Source: Oscillatoriaceae cyanobacterium Prado104
Lineage (GTDB): Bacteria; Cyanobacteriota; Cyanobacteriia; Cyanobacteriales; Microcoleaceae
NCBI GenBank assembly: GCA_025454405.1
Contig: JALOON010000079.1
Coordinates: 1-64,000 of the forward strand
Direction of reading: 5' to 3'
Length of the DNA stretch: 64,000 nucleotides
This document shows, piece after piece, positions 32,827 through 42,844 of the stretch; position 1 is the stretch's first letter; every line of letters begins with the position of its first letter. A program made the position numbers and the translations under genes. The notes beneath the pieces were generated by a model that saw only the letters and a list, made by a program, of their open reading frames with translations, did not search any database and was not told the DNA's origin.

Positions 32827-34431
32827 GTGGAAAAATACATAAAAGACAGCAACGTATTAATTGTGGCGGCAGCAGGCAACGACGGCTGCGAGTGCTTGCA
32901 CGTCCCGGCAGCACTACCTGCAGTCCTGGCCGTAGGGGCAATGGACGATCGGGGGCAAATCTTAGACTTCAGTAACTGGGGCGAAACCTATCAAACTCAA
33001 GGCATTGTCGCCCCTGGAGAAAACATTCTCGGCGCTAAACCGGGAGGAGGGACTGTCCGGTTGGGCGGTACTAGCTTTGCAACTCCCATTGTCTCTGGAG
33101 TGGCAGCACTGCTGCTGAGCCAGCAAGTGCAGCAAGGGGAAAAACCCAACCCCCAACAAGTGCGAGATGCTTTGCTCGCAAGTGCCATCCCTTGTGAAGC
33201 TGATGCAGTAGAAAACTCTTTCCGCTGTTTGGCTGGCAAGCTCAATATTTCAGGTGCAATTCACATAGTGCAACAAGGAGCAAAAATGTCTGAATCAGCA
33301 GAAACAGTCGTACCTGCAGGGTGCGGCTGTCAGGGCACTCAAGTCAGCGATGCTGTCATTGAGGAGCCGGATAACGCAATTAACTCCCAAAAACAAATCG
33401 AAACCGATCGAGGTGAAGTTGTTCCTGCTGGCACGGCAGCCTCTTTAACACCCCTTGCCACCAAATCGGAAACTTATATCAATCCTCCCTCATTTTCAGC
33501 ACAATCTACTTCTTCAAGACAGACTGCAATGCCGCATCAATCCTCAAATTTTGTGACCGCCAGCCAAGCACCCAGCGAACTTGCTGGCAGTAATTTAGTT
33601 TATGCTTTGGGAACATTAGGTTATGACTTCGGCACCGAAGCAAGGCGCGACTCTTTCAAACAACTGATGCCAGGGTTGAGCATCGACAATACCATCGTTC
33701 CTGCTAATCCCTACGATGCCCGTCAGATGGTGGATTATTTAGGAGCAAATCTTTCCGAAGCCAAAGCTTTAATTTGGACGTTAAATCTAGAATTAACTCC
33801 GATTTACGCGATCGAACCTGTCGGTGCTTTTGCCAGAGATGTTTATGCAATCTTGCAAGAACTCCTAGGCGGACAAATTGCCGCCGAAGCAAGCAACGAT
33901 TATGTCGAGCGAGTCAGCATTCCTGGTGTTTTAAGCGGCAGAACAGTCAAACTATTTTCCGGGCAAGTTGTTCCTGTAGTGGAAATCTACAATGCGCGGG
34001 GACTTTACGGTTGGAAAATTAACAGCTTGGTTAATGCAGCCATAGACACTGTAAGGACGCAAGCGTCACAGGCAACTGAAAATGAGGCGATCCGGCGCAC
34101 TCTCCGCAGCTTCCTCAACCGCATTTATTACGACTTGCGCAACTTGGGAACAACTTCGCAAGACCGAGCGCTTAATTTCTCCGCTACCAACGCCTTTCAA
34201 GCTGCTTCTACTTTCGCTCAAGCAGTGGGTGCAGGAATGGAACTCGACAGCATTACAGTAGAAAAAAGCCCGTTCTGCAGGCTTGACAGCGATTGCTGGG
34301 ATGTGAAATTAAAGTTTTTTGACCCAGAAAATAGCCGGCGCGCCAAGAAAGTTTACCGCTTTACCATTGATGTGAGCGATATCATTCCCGTTACATTGGG
34401 CGAAGTTCGGACTTGGGCTACGTCTTATTAA
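32827..34431 (+). CDS. PatA/PatG-type cyanobactin maturation protease, N-terminally truncated
   Basis: 534 residues from GTG, starting only 8 bases after the kdpD stop. The sequence opens inside a subtilisin domain: oxyanion Asn in VAAAGNDG (residue 18) and the catalytic Ser in GGTSFATPIVSG (residue 83) are present. The segments carrying the catalytic Asp and His are missing. A variable linker follows, then the PatG-type C-terminal domain (LGTLGYDFGTEARRD to PVTLGEVRTWA). The intact paralogue at 40634-42844 shares the whole architecture. As read it cannot be an active serine protease; it may be a pseudogene or a binding-only protein. Confidence 0.75.
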   Translation: MEKYIKDSNVLIVAAAGNDGCECLHVPAALPAVLAVGAMDDRGQILDFSNWGETYQTQGIVAPGENILGAKPGGGTVRLGGTSFATPIVSGVAALLLSQQVQQGEKPNPQQVRDALLASAIPCEADAVENSFRCLAGKLNISGAIHIVQQGAKMSESAETVVPAGCGCQGTQVSDAVIEEPDNAINSQKQIETDRGEVVPAGTAASLTPLATKSETYINPPSFSAQSTSSRQTAMPHQSSNFVTASQAPSELAGSNLVYALGTLGYDFGTEARRDSFKQLMPGLSIDNTIVPANPYDARQMVDYLGANLSEAKALIWTLNLELTPIYAIEPVGAFARDVYAILQELLGGQIAAEASNDYVERVSIPGVLSGRTVKLFSGQVVPVVEIYNARGLYGWKINSLVNAAIDTVRTQASQATENEAIRRTLRSFLNRIYYDLRNLGTTSQDRALNFSATNAFQAASTFAQAVGAGMELDSITVEKSPFCRLDSDCWDVKLKFFDPENSRRAKKVYRFTIDVSDIIPVTLGEVRTWATSY

Positions 34432-34544: not shown

Positions 34545-34706
34545 ATGAGATTGCCCAAGTTATCTACCCCTGTTAAACGGAACTTACCCCCCGCACGAAA
34601 TTCATTTCTTATGAAACCATTACAGGGCGAGACTTTCCTGGATCGGGAAAATCTCCTACATGACTACAAGTACATGGCTACACAATTGTCACTGCCAAAT
34701 GGCTAA
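34545..34706 (+). CDS. 53-residue peptide, possible RiPP precursor
   Basis: Starts MRLPKLSTPVKRNLPP and has a GGAG ribosome-binding site at normal distance. The beginning (LPKLSTPVKR) recalls the xxLxPxxxxPVxR leader pattern of cyanobactin precursors, and the gene lies directly after a PatG-type protease. The rest (FLMKPLQGETFLDRENLLHDY) is not like a known core. Function unknown; the precursor idea is inference. Confidence 0.45.
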   Translation: MRLPKLSTPVKRNLPPARNSFLMKPLQGETFLDRENLLHDYKYMATQLSLPNG

Positions 34707-34759
34707 AACTAATACAGCTCAAAGAATACAGCCACCGAAACTACCCCCTCCGGGGGTAA

Positions 34760-34939
34760 GTTCCGGTTAAAAGACCCGATATTATTTACCCGCACCGAGC
34801 CGTTGATGTCGTCAACGGCACCGTAGAAGGACTGGTTCGCGTTCGCATGAAATTGCTGCACGGTGCCAATTTTAACGATCCGGCTGCTTTTGAGCATAGA
34901 AGCTACCAGCAAATCAAATATTCTCAGTACAAACGCTAG
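34760..34939 (+). other. possible gene remnant, orientation unsure
   Basis: The plus strand reads KRPDIIYPHRAVDVVNG to HRSYQQIKYSQYKR and stop, with no start codon. The minus strand over 34709-34912 is also open (IGTVQQFHANANQSFYGAVDD ... VVSVAVFFELY), with a beta-protein look. One is probably the 3' remnant of a real gene. I cannot name it. Confidence 0.3.
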
Positions 34940-35050: not shown

Positions 35051-35251
35051 ATGACTAAGAAAGACAAAAATTCTGCCGGAGAAACTCAAACAGAATCTGA
35101 TGATACCAATGAATTAGCAAAGATTAAAAATCGTTTTCTAGCAACAGGAATTGAGGATTATGGATTTTGGTGGGCGCAAATGTTGAAAGAACAATCGGGT
35201 AAGTCCGTCCCCGATCCATCATCATTCCGCCGCGGGCGGATTTGGTCTTAA
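35051..35251 (+). CDS. 66-residue precursor-like peptide with EDYGFWW...RRGRIWS tail
   Basis: Strong ribosome-binding site (AGGAGAGAGG) 8-17 bases before the ATG. The N-terminal half is polar (KKDKNSAGETQTESDD). The C-terminal half reads TGIEDYGFWWAQMLKEQ, then a short linker and RRGRIWS at the very end. The same two blocks end the large LamG protein 184 bases downstream. It sits between two PatA/PatG-type proteases, so a secreted or processed peptide is likely. Family not recognised. Confidence 0.65.
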   Translation: MTKKDKNSAGETQTESDDTNELAKIKNRFLATGIEDYGFWWAQMLKEQSGKSVPDPSSFRRGRIWS

Positions 35252-35434
35252 TTAAATCTCTCGATGGCCGCTCCCAGACGCAAAACTGACAAGCATCAGA
35301 AAAGCAGTAAGGTGCGCGCTGCGCACCCTAGCTATCCCTTTCAGTAGATGCACATATCCTGCAAAACTGACAAGCATCGGAAAAATTATCGATTAAAAAT
35401 TGCCTGACTTTAACTCAAAACAGGAGAAGTAAAA
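35252..35434. other. short intergenic region with a GGTGCGCGCTGCGCACC palindrome
   Basis: Carries the palindrome near 35309-35333 and a repeated CAAAACTGACAAGCATC (35280 and 35361). No gene. Confidence 0.5.
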
Positions 35435-38400
35435 ATGGCTAATTTTCAGTCTGTTTTAAAATTTAGTAACGCCAGCGATATTGTAGAAATTCCCTTGGCA
35501 ACACCTGTAAAACCCAGCCGATTTACCCTCTCCTGTTGGGCAAGAGTTTTAGGAGGTCAGGGAAGCTGGCGCAGTCCGGTTTGCTTGCGAGACACAAGTT
35601 CCAATAACAGGTACGCATTTTACGCAGGTACTGGAAATCAATGGCACTTTTATCTCGAAGGAACTTCTTCAGATTCTATTGTTGCTTCGGTAGTAAATCT
35701 AGTAACTCTCAATGTTTGGACTCACTTAGCAACAACCTACGATGGCACTAAACTGACACTCTATGTCAACGGCAATGCAGTCGCGCAAAAAGATTCAGTA
35801 GCTCCTCATACCATCAATCGCGTCGAGATAGGGAGCGTTGCTGGCTCTTACCCTTTCCCCGGTGAAGTTACCGAAGTTTGTTTCTGGAACTGCGCCCGCA
35901 CCCAAGCAGAAATTCAACAAGATATGTACCGGGGTTTGAGGGGGGACGAGCCAGATTTGTTAGGTTATTGGCCTCTGTCAGAAGGCTCTGGCAATACCGT
36001 TGCCGACAAGACCGAAAAGAAAAACAACGGCACGATTAAAGGCGCAACTTGGCAGCAGCAAATCTTTTTTCAACCCATTCAACCCACCCTTCAGCAGAAA
36101 ACTAACATCGAGTCAGAGTCCGTTCTTGTTTTTGACGGTAAAGATGATTATGTAGAATTTCCCGGCCAATGTGTGCCAGCAGGCAATGAAATTACTGTCA
36201 CCTTTTGGGTCTATGGGGGAAGTTCGCTTCCCAAGCAGACTAGCATCCTCGAAGCAGTGGAAAAGTCTGCAGTCAGAATGTTAAATATCCATCTCCCTTG
36301 GAGTAATGGTAGAGTTTACTTCGATTGCGGGAGTCAAACTACTTGCGATCGCATTGAAAAAGACGCTCCTGCCAGCGAATATAAAGACAAATGGACGCAC
36401 TGGGCTTTTACTAAAAACGTAACGACCGGAGAGATGAAAATCTATCTTAATGGTGAACTATGGCATAGCGAAGGTAATAAAAAAGCTGCTATATCCCAAG
36501 CAGACAAGCTCGCCATTGGTTCTCACCCTAGCCCTGCTCTAGGTAATCACTATCACGGCATGATGCAGGAACTGAGCATCTGGAGTCGCGCTCTTTCCCC
36601 AGAGGAAATCAAACAAAATATGAATCGCCGCTTGGTAGGGAACGAACCAAATTTAACAGGCTATTGGCCTTTGAATGAAGGGACTGGGACTATTGTCCGA
36701 GACAAAACTCGCCGGGGCAATCACGGCTCAATTAATGGAGCAACCTGGCAGCAGCAAAAATTTTTACAACCCGCAGAAGCGTCAATTACTACTGCAACTT
36801 GGGAAGAACCAATCTTTTTACAAGCTGCCAGCGAACAGAGACCTTTTCAGTCAGTCTTGGTGCTTGACGGACAAGATGACTGTGTAGAAATTCCTTATAC
36901 ACCAACTCTCAATCCCGATCGCTTTACGGCATCCTGTTGGGTAAAAGTGCAAGGAGGACAGGGAAGCACTCGCTCTATAATTGTTTCGCGCGACATGAAT
37001 CCCCCAAAAGGATATGTTCTCAACGTTGGCGACAACAACAATAAGTGGCAGTTTTGGATAGCAGATGGCAAGGGAAACTGGTTTGGTGTGGTTGGTTCAG
37101 ATGTGACGCTCAATAGCTGGACTCACATCGCAGCTACCTGGGACGGCAGCAAACTTGCACTCTATATTAATGGAGAATTGGCTCAAGAAATAACGGGAAA
37201 TTACGCTCCCAATACGGCTCGTCCCCTGCGCATCGGTGCGGGAGCTACAGAAGTAAACCCGACTAGGTTTCTGCCCGGTCAAATTGCGGATGTCAGCATC
37301 TGGAATCGCCCCCTTTCTCAAGCAGAAATTAAAAAGCAGATGGATGTCCGCTTAGCAGGCAACGAACCAGGTTTAGTCGGGTATTGGCATTTGAATGAAG
37401 GGGCTGGGACGATCGCTACTGACAAGAGTACCATTGCCCATCACGGTGTAATTAAAGGGGGAGCAGTTTGGAACCGACAACTGTTCTTAAGGGCAGAAAC
37501 TCAAGTCGCGTCGATCGAGAAAAAAACTCCCTTAGAAAGTAAAGCAGCTCTTTATTTTGATGGACAGGACGATTGTATTAACTTGGGCAAAAAGCCGCTA
37601 TTTAAAGTTGAGAAAAATCTCACATTAGAAGCTTGGGTTTGTACTGAGAGAAACAACCAAGAATGGATAGGTGTTTTCTCAAATGTTTACGATACAGGAG
37701 CTACAGAAAGCGGCTATTGCTTGTGCTTGGATGGAAAGGGTGGTGTTGAGTTTGGCTTAACACCTTCATCAACGCAGAGAATTATTTACTTGAGTAGTGG
37801 GGCAAATACTTTACCACTGAATGAATGGCATCATGTGGCAGGGGTTTATGATGGTCAGCAGATGAGGGTTTATATTGATGGAGTGCAAAAAATAACCCAA
37901 GCCGTTGCTAGCCCTAGCATTTCTTACAACCCAGAAAACAACCTGCACATCGGAGGTTACAAAGATGACGATGAAGCTTACTATTTCAGAGGAAAAATCT
38001 CTGAAGTACGGCTCTGGAATGTAGCTCGCTCTCCTGAAGAAATTCAAAAGAATATGTCCTGCCGTTTGACTGGTAACGAACCAGGATTGGTGGGTTATTG
38101 GCCACTCAATGAAGGATCGGGAAATACCGTTTCCGACAAAACGGTTAAAGGAAATCACGGACCGATTTCGGGGGCGACTTGGACAGAACCCGGCCCTCAA
38201 TTAGTCGTTGCGAAACTGTCAGAAGCTAAGCCAGTTGATGCTAACCAAGAAAAGGCACTTGCTGAACAAAAAGCCGCACTGGAAAAGGCGTTAGCAGATA
38301 AAGCCGCAGCAGAAGCCAAAGCAGCCGCAGATGCTAAGGCTGCGACTGATGCCAAGGCGGCTGCTGACAAAGCAATTGCTGAAAAACAAGCTGCTGAAAA

Positions 38401-39112
38401 ACAAGCAGCGGATGCTAAGGCTGCTGCTGACAAAGCAACTGCTGAAAAACAAGCTGCTGAAAAACAAGCAGTGGATGCTAAGGCTGCTGCTGACAAAGTA
38501 ACTGCTGAAAAACAAGCTGCTGAAAAACAAGCAGCGGATGCTAAGGCTGCTGCTGACAAAGTAACTGCTGAAAAACAAGCGGCAGAACAAGCAGCGGCAC
38601 AACAAGCAGCGGCGGCCCAAAAAGCAGCAGCAGAAAAAGCAGAGTTGGAAAAAGCCCTAGCGGAGGCGAAAGCTACTGCTGACAAAGCGGTGGCTGAAGC
38701 TCAAGCAGCAACGGCAACAAAACTGGCAGCGGAGGCAAAAGCAGCGGCCGATCGAGCAGAGGCAGAAGCTCAAATCGCTGAGATTCAAGCGGCGACGGCG
38801 AAGAAGGTGGAGAAAGCAGAAGCGGAAGCCAGGGCTGCTGAAGCTAGAGCGAAAGCTGCTGAGGCTGCTGCTTTAGCTTTAGCAGTAGAGGAAAAAGCCA
38901 AGGAGGTGAAAGGAGAGACAAAAGATAAGGTTACTGGGATTAATGCCGATCGAGCCAAAAGTCGGCTGTTGAAAAACTCAACTGGTTTGGAAGACTATGG
39001 TTATTGGTGGCAGCAGATGTTGCAACAGCCGCAACAAGAAAGTGAGGGCGATGGCCATAATAATCGCAGGGGTCGAATTGGCCGTAATCGCAGGGGTCGA
39101 ATTTGGTCTTAG
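35435..39112 (+). CDS. four-LamG protein with coiled-coil stalk and RRGRIWS tail
   Basis: 1225 residues. Four concanavalin/LamG-like domains (about 1-205, 225-445, 465-685, 700-905). Each has a W-(T/N)H-(L/I/V)A strand and ends with SIWNR-type + LVGYWPLNEGSG + NHG(T/S/P)I. Next comes an Ala/Lys/Glu-rich heptad region (about 915-1160) with AADKATAEKQAAEKQA units repeated. The last ~50 residues read STGLEDYGYWWQQML, then two RRGRI blocks and final RRGRIWS, matching the 66-aa peptide. No signal peptide. Ribosome-binding site CAGGAG. LamG domains bind sugars or proteins, so a displayed or processed surface protein is plausible. Confidence 0.85.
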   Translation: MANFQSVLKFSNASDIVEIPLATPVKPSRFTLSCWARVLGGQGSWRSPVCLRDTSSNNRYAFYAGTGNQWHFYLEGTSSDSIVASVVNLVTLNVWTHLATTYDGTKLTLYVNGNAVAQKDSVAPHTINRVEIGSVAGSYPFPGEVTEVCFWNCARTQAEIQQDMYRGLRGDEPDLLGYWPLSEGSGNTVADKTEKKNNGTIKGATWQQQIFFQPIQPTLQQKTNIESESVLVFDGKDDYVEFPGQCVPAGNEITVTFWVYGGSSLPKQTSILEAVEKSAVRMLNIHLPWSNGRVYFDCGSQTTCDRIEKDAPASEYKDKWTHWAFTKNVTTGEMKIYLNGELWHSEGNKKAAISQADKLAIGSHPSPALGNHYHGMMQELSIWSRALSPEEIKQNMNRRLVGNEPNLTGYWPLNEGTGTIVRDKTRRGNHGSINGATWQQQKFLQPAEASITTATWEEPIFLQAASEQRPFQSVLVLDGQDDCVEIPYTPTLNPDRFTASCWVKVQGGQGSTRSIIVSRDMNPPKGYVLNVGDNNNKWQFWIADGKGNWFGVVGSDVTLNSWTHIAATWDGSKLALYINGELAQEITGNYAPNTARPLRIGAGATEVNPTRFLPGQIADVSIWNRPLSQAEIKKQMDVRLAGNEPGLVGYWHLNEGAGTIATDKSTIAHHGVIKGGAVWNRQLFLRAETQVASIEKKTPLESKAALYFDGQDDCINLGKKPLFKVEKNLTLEAWVCTERNNQEWIGVFSNVYDTGATESGYCLCLDGKGGVEFGLTPSSTQRIIYLSSGANTLPLNEWHHVAGVYDGQQMRVYIDGVQKITQAVASPSISYNPENNLHIGGYKDDDEAYYFRGKISEVRLWNVARSPEEIQKNMSCRLTGNEPGLVGYWPLNEGSGNTVSDKTVKGNHGPISGATWTEPGPQLVVAKLSEAKPVDANQEKALAEQKAALEKALADKAAAEAKAAADAKAATDAKAAADKAIAEKQAAEKQAADAKAAADKATAEKQAAEKQAVDAKAAADKVTAEKQAAEKQAADAKAAADKVTAEKQAAEQAAAQQAAAAQKAAAEKAELEKALAEAKATADKAVAEAQAATATKLAAEAKAAADRAEAEAQIAEIQAATAKKVEKAEAEARAAEARAKAAEAAALALAVEEKAKEVKGETKDKVTGINADRAKSRLLKNSTGLEDYGYWWQQMLQQPQQESEGDGHNNRRGRIGRNRRGRIWS

Positions 39113-39449: not shown

Positions 39450-39602
39450 ATGAAAAAGAACAAATTGCAGCCTTTAGCAACAGCCCCGATTAAGCGCACT
39501 GTTGCTGGTACAAGTAAAGCAGATGCAACCAGTGGCTCAATTAACCAAAGCGTCTACTTGAGCTCTCCCTGGGACCCGTTTGCTAGCGATGATGCTCAAT
39601 AA
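39450..39602 (+). CDS. cyanobactin-like precursor peptide (PatE/AcyE type)
   Basis: 50 residues. The leader starts MKKNKLQPLATAPIKR, matching the (K)KNxxxPxxxxPxxR opening of cyanobactin precursors. The end reads SVYLSSPWDPFASDDAQ. FASDDAQ closely resembles the FAGDDAE C-terminal recognition sequence that PatG-type macrocyclases cut, so the likely core is a short Ser/Pro/Trp/Asp/Phe peptide ending at F (for example SSPWDPF). GAGGA ribosome-binding site 10 bases upstream and a clear promoter. The intact protease gene is 1 kb downstream. No heterocyclisable Cys in the core. Core boundaries are inferred. Confidence 0.75.
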   Translation: MKKNKLQPLATAPIKRTVAGTSKADATSGSINQSVYLSSPWDPFASDDAQ

Positions 39603-39871
39603 GGCAATTAATTTGTCTTAGCAAATTTTACTGGTCATCATCTGTAAGGGGCTTGTGGTTTAACGATCTACCAATCAAATTTTAGGATTGTTACATTAGA
39701 CTTCTCCCATAATGAGGTTTTTGTCCATATAGGGCAAGGCTTTCAGAATATTTTTAGGAGTTGTCTATTACTATCGTTACCCAAGTCCCTTAATTTTTTC
39801 GTAAAATGTTCCTTTATCGGGGAGGAGTATTAAAACAGTATCTACTAATAAAGTTCGAATTGAAAAAAGCC

Positions 39872-40291
39872 ATGAAAAAGAATATACGACCCCAACAAGC
39901 TGTTCCAGTTGAACGGATAATGATGGAATCAACAAGCAAGCATCAATCTTCCAGGGAATCTGGTATGCTTGCGAACTTTTTTCCTCCTTGTGGGCCATTT
40001 CCACCTATGGTAGGACTGCGCCCGCCATTCCCGCCGCCATTCCCGCCACCATTCCCGCCACCATTCCCGCCACCATTTCCACCTGTGGTAGGACCGTGCC
40101 CGCCATTCCCGCCACCATTCCCACCTTGTCCGCCATTTTGTCCACCACCTATGGTAATATGTCCGCCACCCAGACCAGTATGCCCGCCTTGTCCGCCATT
40201 TTGTCCACCACCTATGGTAATATGTCCGCCACCCAGACCAGTATGCCCGCCTTGTCCGCCATTTTGTCCGCCAGGGAGAAGACCGTGGTGA
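39872..40291 (+). CDS. cyanobactin-leader protein with Pro/Cys-rich repeat region
   Basis: 139 residues. It starts MKKNIRPQQAVPVER, almost the canonical cyanobactin leader. After ~35 residues (ESGMLANFFPPCGPFPP) it becomes PPFPPPFPP units and then CPPFCPPPMVICPPPRPVC repeats (a 63-base DNA unit about 2.3 times), ending PPGRRPW. Twelve Cys, no recognition sequence like FAGDDAE. An upstream ATG at 39806 is in frame, but the conserved leader begins at 39872. It may be a repeat-expanded precursor or a wall-type protein that captured a leader. It lies 343 bases before the intact PatG-type protease. Confidence 0.65.
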   Translation: MKKNIRPQQAVPVERIMMESTSKHQSSRESGMLANFFPPCGPFPPMVGLRPPFPPPFPPPFPPPFPPPFPPVVGPCPPFPPPFPPCPPFCPPPMVICPPPRPVCPPCPPFCPPPMVICPPPRPVCPPCPPFCPPGRRPW

Positions 40292-40633: not shown

Positions 40634-42844
40634 ATGCCCGAGCTCATCGCTATTTCCGGTATCCCCGAACTCTGGACAAATACTTTAGGCGACACCCGAA
40701 TTACCATCGCGATTCTCGACGGTGTTGTTGACATGGAACGCACCTGCTTTCGGGGGGCAAATCTCAGCCAAATCAAACCCTACTGGCAGGAAGAACCCGA
40801 ACCCATTTCTCCTGCTGATTTGGAAACATACCGGGAAATAGAAACCCTGAAAAAAAAACTGGCGGATCTCAAACAAGATGACAGCGAAACTGCTGTTAAA
40901 GACCAAAAAATTCAAGATTTAGAATCAGAAATCGATCGAGTGCAGGAAACTATACCCGAAGCCATTCGCTATCGGCTAGATTTTAGCTTCCACGCTACCC
41001 ATATTGCCAGTAGCATTTTCGGCCAGCACGGTTCTCCGGTTCCAGGTGTTGCCCCCCGCTGCACGGGTATCAATATCCCCCTAGAACTCAGCGGTATTGG
41101 CAGCGAATTCGCTTCCCCCCTCAACTTGGCTCGTGCCTTTAATTTAGCAATGGAATGCGGTGCTAATATTATTCACTGCGCTGCTTGCCACCCTACTCAA
41201 ACAGGTCTCGCTCACGAACTGATTTCCCGCGCTGTCAAACAATGTCAAGATAATGGCATTTTAGTTGTTGCTCCCGGTGGCAATGACAAAGGTGAATGTT
41301 GGTGCATTCCTGCGGTGCTTCCTAACGTTATAGCCGTGGGAGCGATGCGAGATGGCGGTCAACCTTTCAAATTTAGCAACTACGGTGGCGAATATCAAAA
41401 ACAAGGCATACTGGCACCAGGAGAAAATATTTTAGGCGCGCAACCAGGCACAGACAAACCAGTTCGCAAAAAGGGTAGCAGCGTCGCGGCACCGATTGTT
41501 ACGGGCGTTGCTGCCTTGTTAATGAGTTTGCAGTTAAAGCGCGGGGAAAAACCAAATGCTGAAGCTGTGCGCTCTGCCCTTTTAAATAGTGCTATTCCCT
41601 GCGATGCTAAAGAAGTAGAAGAACCGGAACGCTGCTTGCGAGGCAAACTGAATATTCCTGGTGCTGTCCGATTGCTGACAGGAGAACCGCTAACCGGGTT
41701 TGTGCCTGTGAGAAATTCACTTGCTGGATTTGTTTCTACTCCTAAAACTTTCAGCAAGATGCTTCCCCAATCTTTCGATCGCGAACTAGATCGCGAACAG
41801 AAATTTGCTGTACCGGAAAGTGCGATTGCTAATTCTTTATCTGCTAGGGAAGAAAGACAAACAGGGTTAAGTCGATCGACAGTTGCAGAACCAACTGCTA
41901 CTGTTCGAGAAGTTCATCCTTCAGAAATTGTTACCTTACCGAATACCCCCGTTACTGCTGTTGCTAGCGATCGAGAAGAAAGTGGCATTGCTGCCAGTCA
42001 GGTATCGAACCTCGTCTATGTTTTGGGTACGATTGGCTACGATTTCGGGACAGAAGCGCGGCGCGATACTTTTAAACAAATGATGCCAGCCGTAAATATT
42101 GATGGTACAGTTGTTCCTCCCAATCCTTACGATGCCGCTCAAATGGTTGCGTATTTGGAACAGAACCCTACAGAAGCAAAAGCTTTAATTTGGACGCTGA
42201 ACTTAGAGTTAAATCCTATTTATGTTATCGAACCAAAAAATGCTTTTGCTGATGATATGTACGATACTATGGTGCAAATGCTAGCAGGACAAATACAACC
42301 AGAAAACAGCGAAGATTATATCGAACGGGTGAGCATTCCAGGACGTTTAAAAGAGAAAGCTGTGGAACTGTTTTCCGGTCAACTCGTACCCGCGATCGAA
42401 GTTCAATACTCGCGAGGGATGTATGGCTGGCAGGTCAATGACTTAGCGCGATCGGCATTAGCAAATACAAGCAATTGGATGCCAACAGTTACCGATGAAG
42501 CTATAGAGCGATCGCTAGCAACTTTTTTGGAACGCATCTATTTTGAATTGGGGAATGTGGGGAAAACTGCCCGCGATCGCGCGCTGAATTTTGCTGCTAC
42601 TAATGCTTTCCAAGCTGCTGCTACGTTTGCTGAAGCTGTTTCGAGAGGGATGCAACTCAAAAGCATTGAAGTGGAAAAAAGCCCTTTCTGTCGCACGGAC
42701 AGCGACTGCTGGGAGGTAAAATTGCTGTTTTTTGACCCAGAAAACGATCGCAGGGCTAATAAAGTTTTTCGCTTTACGATTGATGTTAAAGATGTAATGC
42801 CAGTTACTTTGGGCGAAGTGCGATCGTGGTCCGTACCGCGCTAG
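40634..42844 (+). CDS. PatA/PatG-type cyanobactin maturation protease
   Basis: 736 residues. Subtilisin domain with the triad intact: Asp29 (AILDGVVD), His120 (FHATHIAS), Ser283 (GSSVAAP), oxyanion Asn217. Between Asp and His sits a charged coiled-coil insertion (LETYREIETLKKKLADL, residues ~62-107). A variable linker (350-445) leads to the PatG-type C-terminal domain (LGTIGYDFGTEARRD ... VEKSPFCRTDSDCWEVKL ... PVTLGEVRSW). PatA removes the leader and PatG cleaves and macrocyclises; which this does cannot be settled from the sequence. Precursor-like genes lie just upstream. A hairpin terminator follows. Confidence 0.85.
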   Translation: MPELIAISGIPELWTNTLGDTRITIAILDGVVDMERTCFRGANLSQIKPYWQEEPEPISPADLETYREIETLKKKLADLKQDDSETAVKDQKIQDLESEIDRVQETIPEAIRYRLDFSFHATHIASSIFGQHGSPVPGVAPRCTGINIPLELSGIGSEFASPLNLARAFNLAMECGANIIHCAACHPTQTGLAHELISRAVKQCQDNGILVVAPGGNDKGECWCIPAVLPNVIAVGAMRDGGQPFKFSNYGGEYQKQGILAPGENILGAQPGTDKPVRKKGSSVAAPIVTGVAALLMSLQLKRGEKPNAEAVRSALLNSAIPCDAKEVEEPERCLRGKLNIPGAVRLLTGEPLTGFVPVRNSLAGFVSTPKTFSKMLPQSFDRELDREQKFAVPESAIANSLSAREERQTGLSRSTVAEPTATVREVHPSEIVTLPNTPVTAVASDREESGIAASQVSNLVYVLGTIGYDFGTEARRDTFKQMMPAVNIDGTVVPPNPYDAAQMVAYLEQNPTEAKALIWTLNLELNPIYVIEPKNAFADDMYDTMVQMLAGQIQPENSEDYIERVSIPGRLKEKAVELFSGQLVPAIEVQYSRGMYGWQVNDLARSALANTSNWMPTVTDEAIERSLATFLERIYFELGNVGKTARDRALNFAATNAFQAAATFAEAVSRGMQLKSIEVEKSPFCRTDSDCWEVKLLFFDPENDRRANKVFRFTIDVKDVMPVTLGEVRSWSVPR

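Follow-up and report, generated by a model that had tools for sequence, protein, structure and literature searches.

The described systems closest to the locus reported here are the cyanobactin clusters of the pat, ten and acy/pir types, which have PatA- and PatG-type proteases carrying the PatG domain of unknown function (DUF), a PatB-like gene, PatC and DUF5840- or PirE-like leaders. The reviews PMC4663559 and PMC3877893, in the parts available, give the function of both PatB and PatC as unknown, and the two are described as short proteins of unknown function in the available parts of PMC4663559, PMC4259220, PMC3877893 and PMC6162287; PirC is listed with 73 aa in a table of PMC3428304, as far as that paper could be consulted. 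A stretch of 64,000 nucleotides from Oscillatoriaceae cyanobacterium Prado104 (contig JALOON010000079.1, positions 1 to 64,000; hereafter the window) contains a cluster with all of these parts, which differs from the published ones in a PatA without the start of its protease domain and in a split PatB. Two proteins of this cyanobactin cluster end in the PatC tail, of which one is bare and the other headed by LamG domains. Searches of the open-licence literature found no PatC reported with a LamG or lectin head, and the finding is best described as a known family in a little-noticed architecture.

The PatC tail on two proteins of the Prado104 cluster

The features that concern the tail are as follows.

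35051..35251, + strand: PatC, 66 aa, a polar arm followed by the tail (TIGR04447, E 1.1e-13)
35435..39112, + strand: LamG-headed PatC, 1225 aa, with four LamG_3 domains, an A/K/E-rich coil and the PatC tail (PF13385, TIGR04447)
38348..38587, + strand: 63-bp tandem repeats, 3.8 copies, encoding the A/K/E-rich coil
38981..39109, + strand: PatC tail of the LamG protein, including a 24-bp duplication at 39062-39109

The 66-aa peptide, encoded by the open reading frame (ORF) 35051-35251, ends in TGIEDYGFWWAQML...FRRGRIWS and the LamG protein (ORF 35435-39112) in TGLEDYGYWWQQML...RRGRIGRNRRGRIWS. Both tails match TIGR04447, the PatC/TenC/TruC model of NCBIfam, above its curated cut-off of 30 bits, the peptide over residues 32-66 (E 1.1e-13, 51.3 bits) and the LamG protein over residues 1183-1215 (E 3.4e-8, 33.7 bits), and the likeness between them, which the original prediction had pointed out, is therefore not due to chance. 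It is near certain that the tail is the PatC/TenC/TruC domain, that the peptide, because it matches this model, is the PatC of a cyanobactin cluster, and that the same cluster encodes, in the LamG protein, a second PatC with a lectin head. The description of the short peptide as a polar arm plus the tail was also correct, its membership of the named family PatC having gone unrecognised. TIGR04447 has 34 positions and is typed by NCBI as a domain, so that length is no bar to a 1225-aa protein carrying it; the typing suggests that the curators knew of longer carriers. Published PatC proteins are short, judging from the parts of the literature available, as is the stand-alone 66-aa peptide, whereas here the domain also ends a 1225-aa protein with four LamG domains. 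In common with the family are the 34-residue domain and a neighbourhood of PatA, PatB, PatG and precursor: the ORFs starting at 32827 and 40634 match TIGR03895 and a piece of PatB lies at 34760.

A degenerate DNA pattern for E-D-Y-G-[FY]-W-W had two exact matches in the 8.5-Mb genome, which were the two window ORFs, and the same pattern read backwards had none. PF13385 covers four stretches of the LamG protein (E 3.3e-113), and these were the only LamG_3 matches in the genome at E <= 1e-5. The tail had no relative among solved structures, where a single chance-level match to spectrin was obtained (E 0.8), and none of 11 matches to the tail pattern in viral contigs was a relative.

An alignment of 58 tails (A3), from which identical tails and the loci L067, L086, L108 and L112 had been removed, showed T, G, D, Y, W and R-G-R-I to be invariant and conservation to be strongest in the last residues; all 58 match TIGR04447. 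The core varies, with TGLQDY in 14/69 and TGLSDY in 8/69 tails, and the letters GLE are thus not kept. The extra RRGRI that had been noted in the LamG protein is indeed present. The sequence shows its origin in a tandem duplication of 24 bp, nearly perfect (39062-39085 and 39086-39109), and, among the A3 rows listed (half of the 58), its columns are filled only in this protein; for these reasons it is probably incidental. In a structure prediction of PatC alone, residues 35-49 formed a helix over EDYGFWWAQMLKEQS followed by a loose C-terminus, with per-residue confidence (pLDDT) of 84 for the tail helix and 66 for the last residues.

Distribution, gene slot and heads of the tail

A contig scan with TGL[EQS]DY[GS][FYR]W matched at least 80 stretches, of which 67 among those listed are relatives, and so gives at least 67 loci; diverged tails escape this pattern, that of the window (TGIEDY type) among them. 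All have cyanobacterial titles. The tail forms the very end of the protein in 67 of the 68 tail ORFs from these 67 loci, with at most one residue following GRIW or a variant of it, the sole exception being L067, which is stopped inside the tail. The position at the protein end that had been noted is thereby upheld, no intact tail being internal in the 68 ORFs, apart from masked bases in L086 between a first STGLEDYS and the terminal tail where a second, internal copy could lie.

The proposed association with PatA/PatG-type proteases was also supported. DUF sequence was found in 57/67 stretches and DUF or S8 sequence in 60/67 (L114 with an S8 fragment only). Of the seven loci with neither, L050, L053, L072, L082 and L115 are on contigs no longer than ~10 kb or close to the end of a contig, and the ORFs of L067 and L100 are truncated, so that no intact tail with 10 kb on both sides stood away from a cluster. 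In an even sample of the class (291 genomes) the tail occurred in 14 genomes, a protease above the family cut-off in 21 and both in 12, that is in 12/14 genomes with a tail versus 9/277 without (Fisher p 4e-14, although the genomes are not independent). The tail genomes without such a protease were G329, with a stop inside the tail match, and G355. PatA, PatG and PatB were the parts most constant with the tail, the precursor, PatD and PatF lying outside this survey. Among plasmids a single record of PatC, carrying that annotation, was found; next to it are PatB and two proteases of the PatA/PatG family. A plasmid search with the window's LamG protein gave 77 records under 60% identity and, among the matches listed, the alignment does not extend past residue 935 and so falls short of the tail. 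A conjugative plasmid of Gloeothece verrucosa PCC 7822 (L125) bears a cyanobactin cluster in which two proteases of the PatA/PatG family are adjacent and which adjoins a Cas12k-type transposon region.

The 67 tails were classed by phmmer cut-offs and a regular expression as 42 bare and 25 headed, the latter comprising 17 LamG, seven like a carbohydrate-binding module (CBM) and one vWA-like; remnants of LamG persist in L054, whose length placed it among the bare tails, and L108 is truncated at the end of its contig. Pfam searches of ten headed proteins found LamG_3 in 7/10, one of the LamG proteins, that of Nostoc sp. S4 (L076), also having a cyanovirin-type CVNH domain above cut-off; a beta-trefoil DUF569 lay just below cut-off in Adonisia (L077), and the matches of L055, L075 and L110 were all irrelevant or below threshold. 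The same kinds of heads were seen in further genomes beyond these loci. A hydropathy scan of 25 headed proteins, made without a dedicated signal predictor, found no hydrophobic membrane or signal stretch (Kyte-Doolittle means over 19 residues reached 1.39 at most), the set consisting of 24 loci and the window protein, with L086 omitted for its masked bases and with unsure start codons in L057, L066 and L093.

A PatB ORF ends no more than 1.5 kb upstream of the tail gene in 21/25 headed and 33/42 bare cases, the remainder being mostly second tails of a cluster or at contig ends. Since headed genes thus occupy the patC slot behind patB, the headed protein is often the PatC of its cluster. Differently headed tails within one cluster were found in the window, in Desmonostoc (L049/L052), in Crocosphaera (L092) and in Oscillatoria (L055/L059 and L056/L058). 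Seven headed genes (L057, L064, L075, L089, L095, L101 and L110) keep an internal ATG that is suitably spaced from the tail, is accompanied by a ribosome-site-like stretch and begins a sequence resembling the start of bare PatC. This looks like an in-frame merger of a head gene with an entire patC, and both headed and bare forms might be made from these genes. The ribosome-site test is loose, 12 internal ATGs passing it, and only the seven with a bare-PatC-like start were counted. On a 38-row tree of PatA DUFs the head state requires nine parsimony changes, five of them forced by well-supported branches (bare class); the tree labels loci, so that the cluster L049/L052 is counted twice. In pairs with like heads the 17 motif positions were more alike than the heads in 65/66. 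Comparison of the PatC and headed codons of L092 gave 28 identical, three synonymous and one changed, a likeness that points to a recent copy and so says little on selection.

A proposed C-terminal docking tag and its alternatives

From these observations we infer, with a probability of about 0.5, that PatC is no enzyme and serves the cyanobactin machinery as a docking tag, C-terminal and exchangeable. A tag fits best because the tail is always last, its end residues are the most conserved, it is tied to one machinery and it is indifferent to the sequence that precedes it. The short helix (TG[LI]xDYxxWW...) and the conserved last residues (RRGRIW) would hold a partner, which may be something peculiar to two-protease cyanobactin clusters, whether PatA, PatG, PatB or a complex of them. 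An optional head (LamG, cyanovirin-type, CBM-like or vWA-like) would then tether the machinery or its product to a glycan or other ligand, and in bare PatC the tag would stand alone, with no address. The carriage of one tail by proteins with unrelated heads recalls PEP-CTERM and the C-terminal domain of type IX secretion. The PatC tail differs from these in having no transmembrane helix, in the lack of any visible N-terminal signal, in also standing alone and in being tied to proteases of ribosomally synthesised and post-translationally modified peptides and not to a sorting enzyme; neither the hydrophobic C-terminal helix nor the N-terminal signal peptide of PEP-CTERM-like proteins was seen in the 25 headed proteins scanned for hydropathy (Kyte-Doolittle mean <=1.39).

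Several findings weigh against a docking tag. The genes patB and patC are non-essential according to the available parts of PMC4663559 and PMC4259220, contrary to PMC3428304, in the accessible text of which PirB and PirC are termed essential. Some DUFs occur with no tail: nine genomes of the class sample have one protease-DUF ORF each and no tail in a stretch of 13-20 kb (best E 0.69). That the heads bind glycans is assumed from fold names, and the CBM-like and vWA matches lie below Pfam cut-offs. The DUF of PatA was the first candidate for the docking site because it too is an orphan, with a new fold and no precursor binding; for the DUF of PatA/PatG both are stated in the available part of PMC4259220, the latter from isothermal titration calorimetry and nuclear magnetic resonance. 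Docking on it was tried by structure prediction of a natural neighbour pair, as one model of the PatA DUF, its natural downstream spacer and PatC (L084), and was not supported. The DUF was modelled correctly (4uvq, template modelling score 0.95 by target), and the tail was given no confident place, with pLDDT of about 60 for the helix and 32 for the last residues, lower than in PatC alone. The model weighs little either way because the tail is present in only 6/44 rows and because it is not a complex prediction, and the partner is left unnamed because no confident placement was obtained. Nor did any ORF naturally combine the tail with the DUF, 0/68 tail ORFs also matching the DUF. A first mixed alignment (A2) had been discarded, its consensus having put short tails on the end of the DUF.

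The original prediction suggested that the tail is a recognition or anchoring signal for processing, possibly by the adjacent proteases, with basic residues as the cut site. A signal-like module linked to the proteases is what emerged; a cleavage signal is not supported. Were the tail a substrate, cut off by PatA or PatG or, in a sortase-like version, joined by PatG to a peptide, the LamG protein would be processed or decorated. This would agree with the strict link to the proteases and the strictly C-terminal position, and TGLEDYG shares letters with the precursor motifs GLEAS and AYDG. PatG is a transpeptidase in cyanobactin macrocyclisation, and the known cuts of PatA and PatG are made at other motifs, of the GLEAS and AYDG types. 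RRGRI stands two residues from the end, so that a cut there would remove almost nothing of a tail whose best-conserved residues are the last; GLE is replaced in the TGLQDY and TGLSDY tails, and bare PatC would be a substrate without a product. We regard a substrate role as improbable. Much the same can be said of an export or surface-sorting signal for lectin-like proteins that have no N-terminal signal: LamG and cyanovirin-type domains are typical of outside proteins and the 25 headed proteins scanned showed no hydrophobic stretch, but 42/67 tails cap no cargo and the C39-type ABC transporter of the window is 15 kb away. We know of no transporter that is a constant part of these clusters, and find this explanation hard to favour.

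Rather unlikely, too, is the view that the tail stands outside the machinery, patC being a linked accessory (regulatory or protective, for example) that acquired heads by chance fusion of neighbours. The reported dispensability of patB and patC speaks for it, and fusions that keep an internal start resemble simple gene mergers; selection on the tail is favoured instead by the recurrence of heads of binding type, the retention of the patC slot and the strong conservation at the very end. A docking tag might also be taken further than the reading preferred here. Through the tail, heads of the lectin type would be plugged into the complex that matures cyanobactins, and the peptide would thereby be made at, or handed to, a particular glycan surface, the target changing with a head swap in the patC slot; this extension is a speculative one and probably wrong. 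In its boldest form the PatG transpeptidase would act on the tagged protein and yield lectin-cyanobactin conjugates.

Other genes of the cluster and the question of PatC

The remaining features of the window cluster are these.

32827..34431, + strand: PatA-type protease with PatG_D/PatG_C DUF, without the N-terminal part of its S8 domain (TIGR03895, E 5e-243)
34545..34938, + strand: PatB-like gene, split, with its start near 34545 and the remainder in another frame at 34760-34938
34570..34773, no strand: small insertion in the PatB-like gene, bounded by terminal inverted repeats of 22 nt
39450..39602, + strand: cyanobactin precursor-like peptide, 50 aa (DUF5840, 2.4e-6, above cut-off)
39806..40291, + strand: 161-aa ORF, its likely start near 39872, in which a cyanobactin-type leader is followed by Pro-rich repeats (DUF5840, 1.6e-7, above cut-off)
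40634..42844, + strand: PatG-type protease, 736 aa, with full S8 and PatG_D/PatG_C DUF (TIGR03895, E 1.9e-252)

In the PatA-type ORF the TIGR03895 match begins at model position 84, Peptidase_S8 covers profile positions 141-273 of 288 and PatG_C matches with E 3.6e-41; the PatA of relatives extends further upstream. The Asp and His of the subtilisin triad presumably lie in the missing part. The best solved relatives of the PatG-type ORF are 4h6x (PatG protease) and 4uvq (PatG DUF), and of the two protease catalytic domains only this one is complete, that of the PatA-type protease being partial. PatB of Gloeothece PCC 7822 matches the ORF at 34760-34936 (phmmer, E 1.8e-20), the start of the window gene having been judged by eye, also from relatives. 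The inverted repeats of the inserted element (34570-34591 and 34752-34773) are 91% complementary, and the element (34575-34770) has 24 matches in its own genome including itself, many of them partial and many at contig ends. Because PatA lacks the start of S8 and PatB is split by the element, the cluster may be decaying or inactive. The 50-aa peptide has both leader and core, and matches TIGR04446 with 1.4e-7 and 31.7 bits, below the cut-off of 35. Behind its leader, ORF 39806-40291 continues for over 100 residues as PFPP and CPP repeats, encoded by 12-bp and 63-bp tandem units; it is an odd precursor, if a precursor at all.

Some further observations concern the proteases and PatB of other loci. 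In L089, L101, L085 and L095 the linker before the DUF of an oxidase-type PatG holds VEAS and, within a few residues, AY[DS]G, which resemble the two recognition motifs of cyanobactin precursors; self-processing or a pseudo-substrate is possible. PatA proteins hold VEASGCGC-like stretches, and the PatB start MRLPK...PPVKR in L073, L059 and L125 recalls the precursor leader MKKN...PVxR. Nine genomes (L116-L124) have a single lone PatA/PatG-like protease, with a diverged DUF except in L116 and with no tail, and these proteases possibly form a separate family with another task. Ten DUF positions, to be taken as candidates, are conserved in 97% or more of 70 cluster DUFs and in no more than a quarter of eight lone DUFs, L116 being set aside.

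The movement of one tail between no head and several binding-type heads turns the old question of PatC into a direct and testable one, namely what the tail holds and what the head binds. The 1225-aa LamG form is a convenient bait for both the partner of the tail and the ligand of the head.

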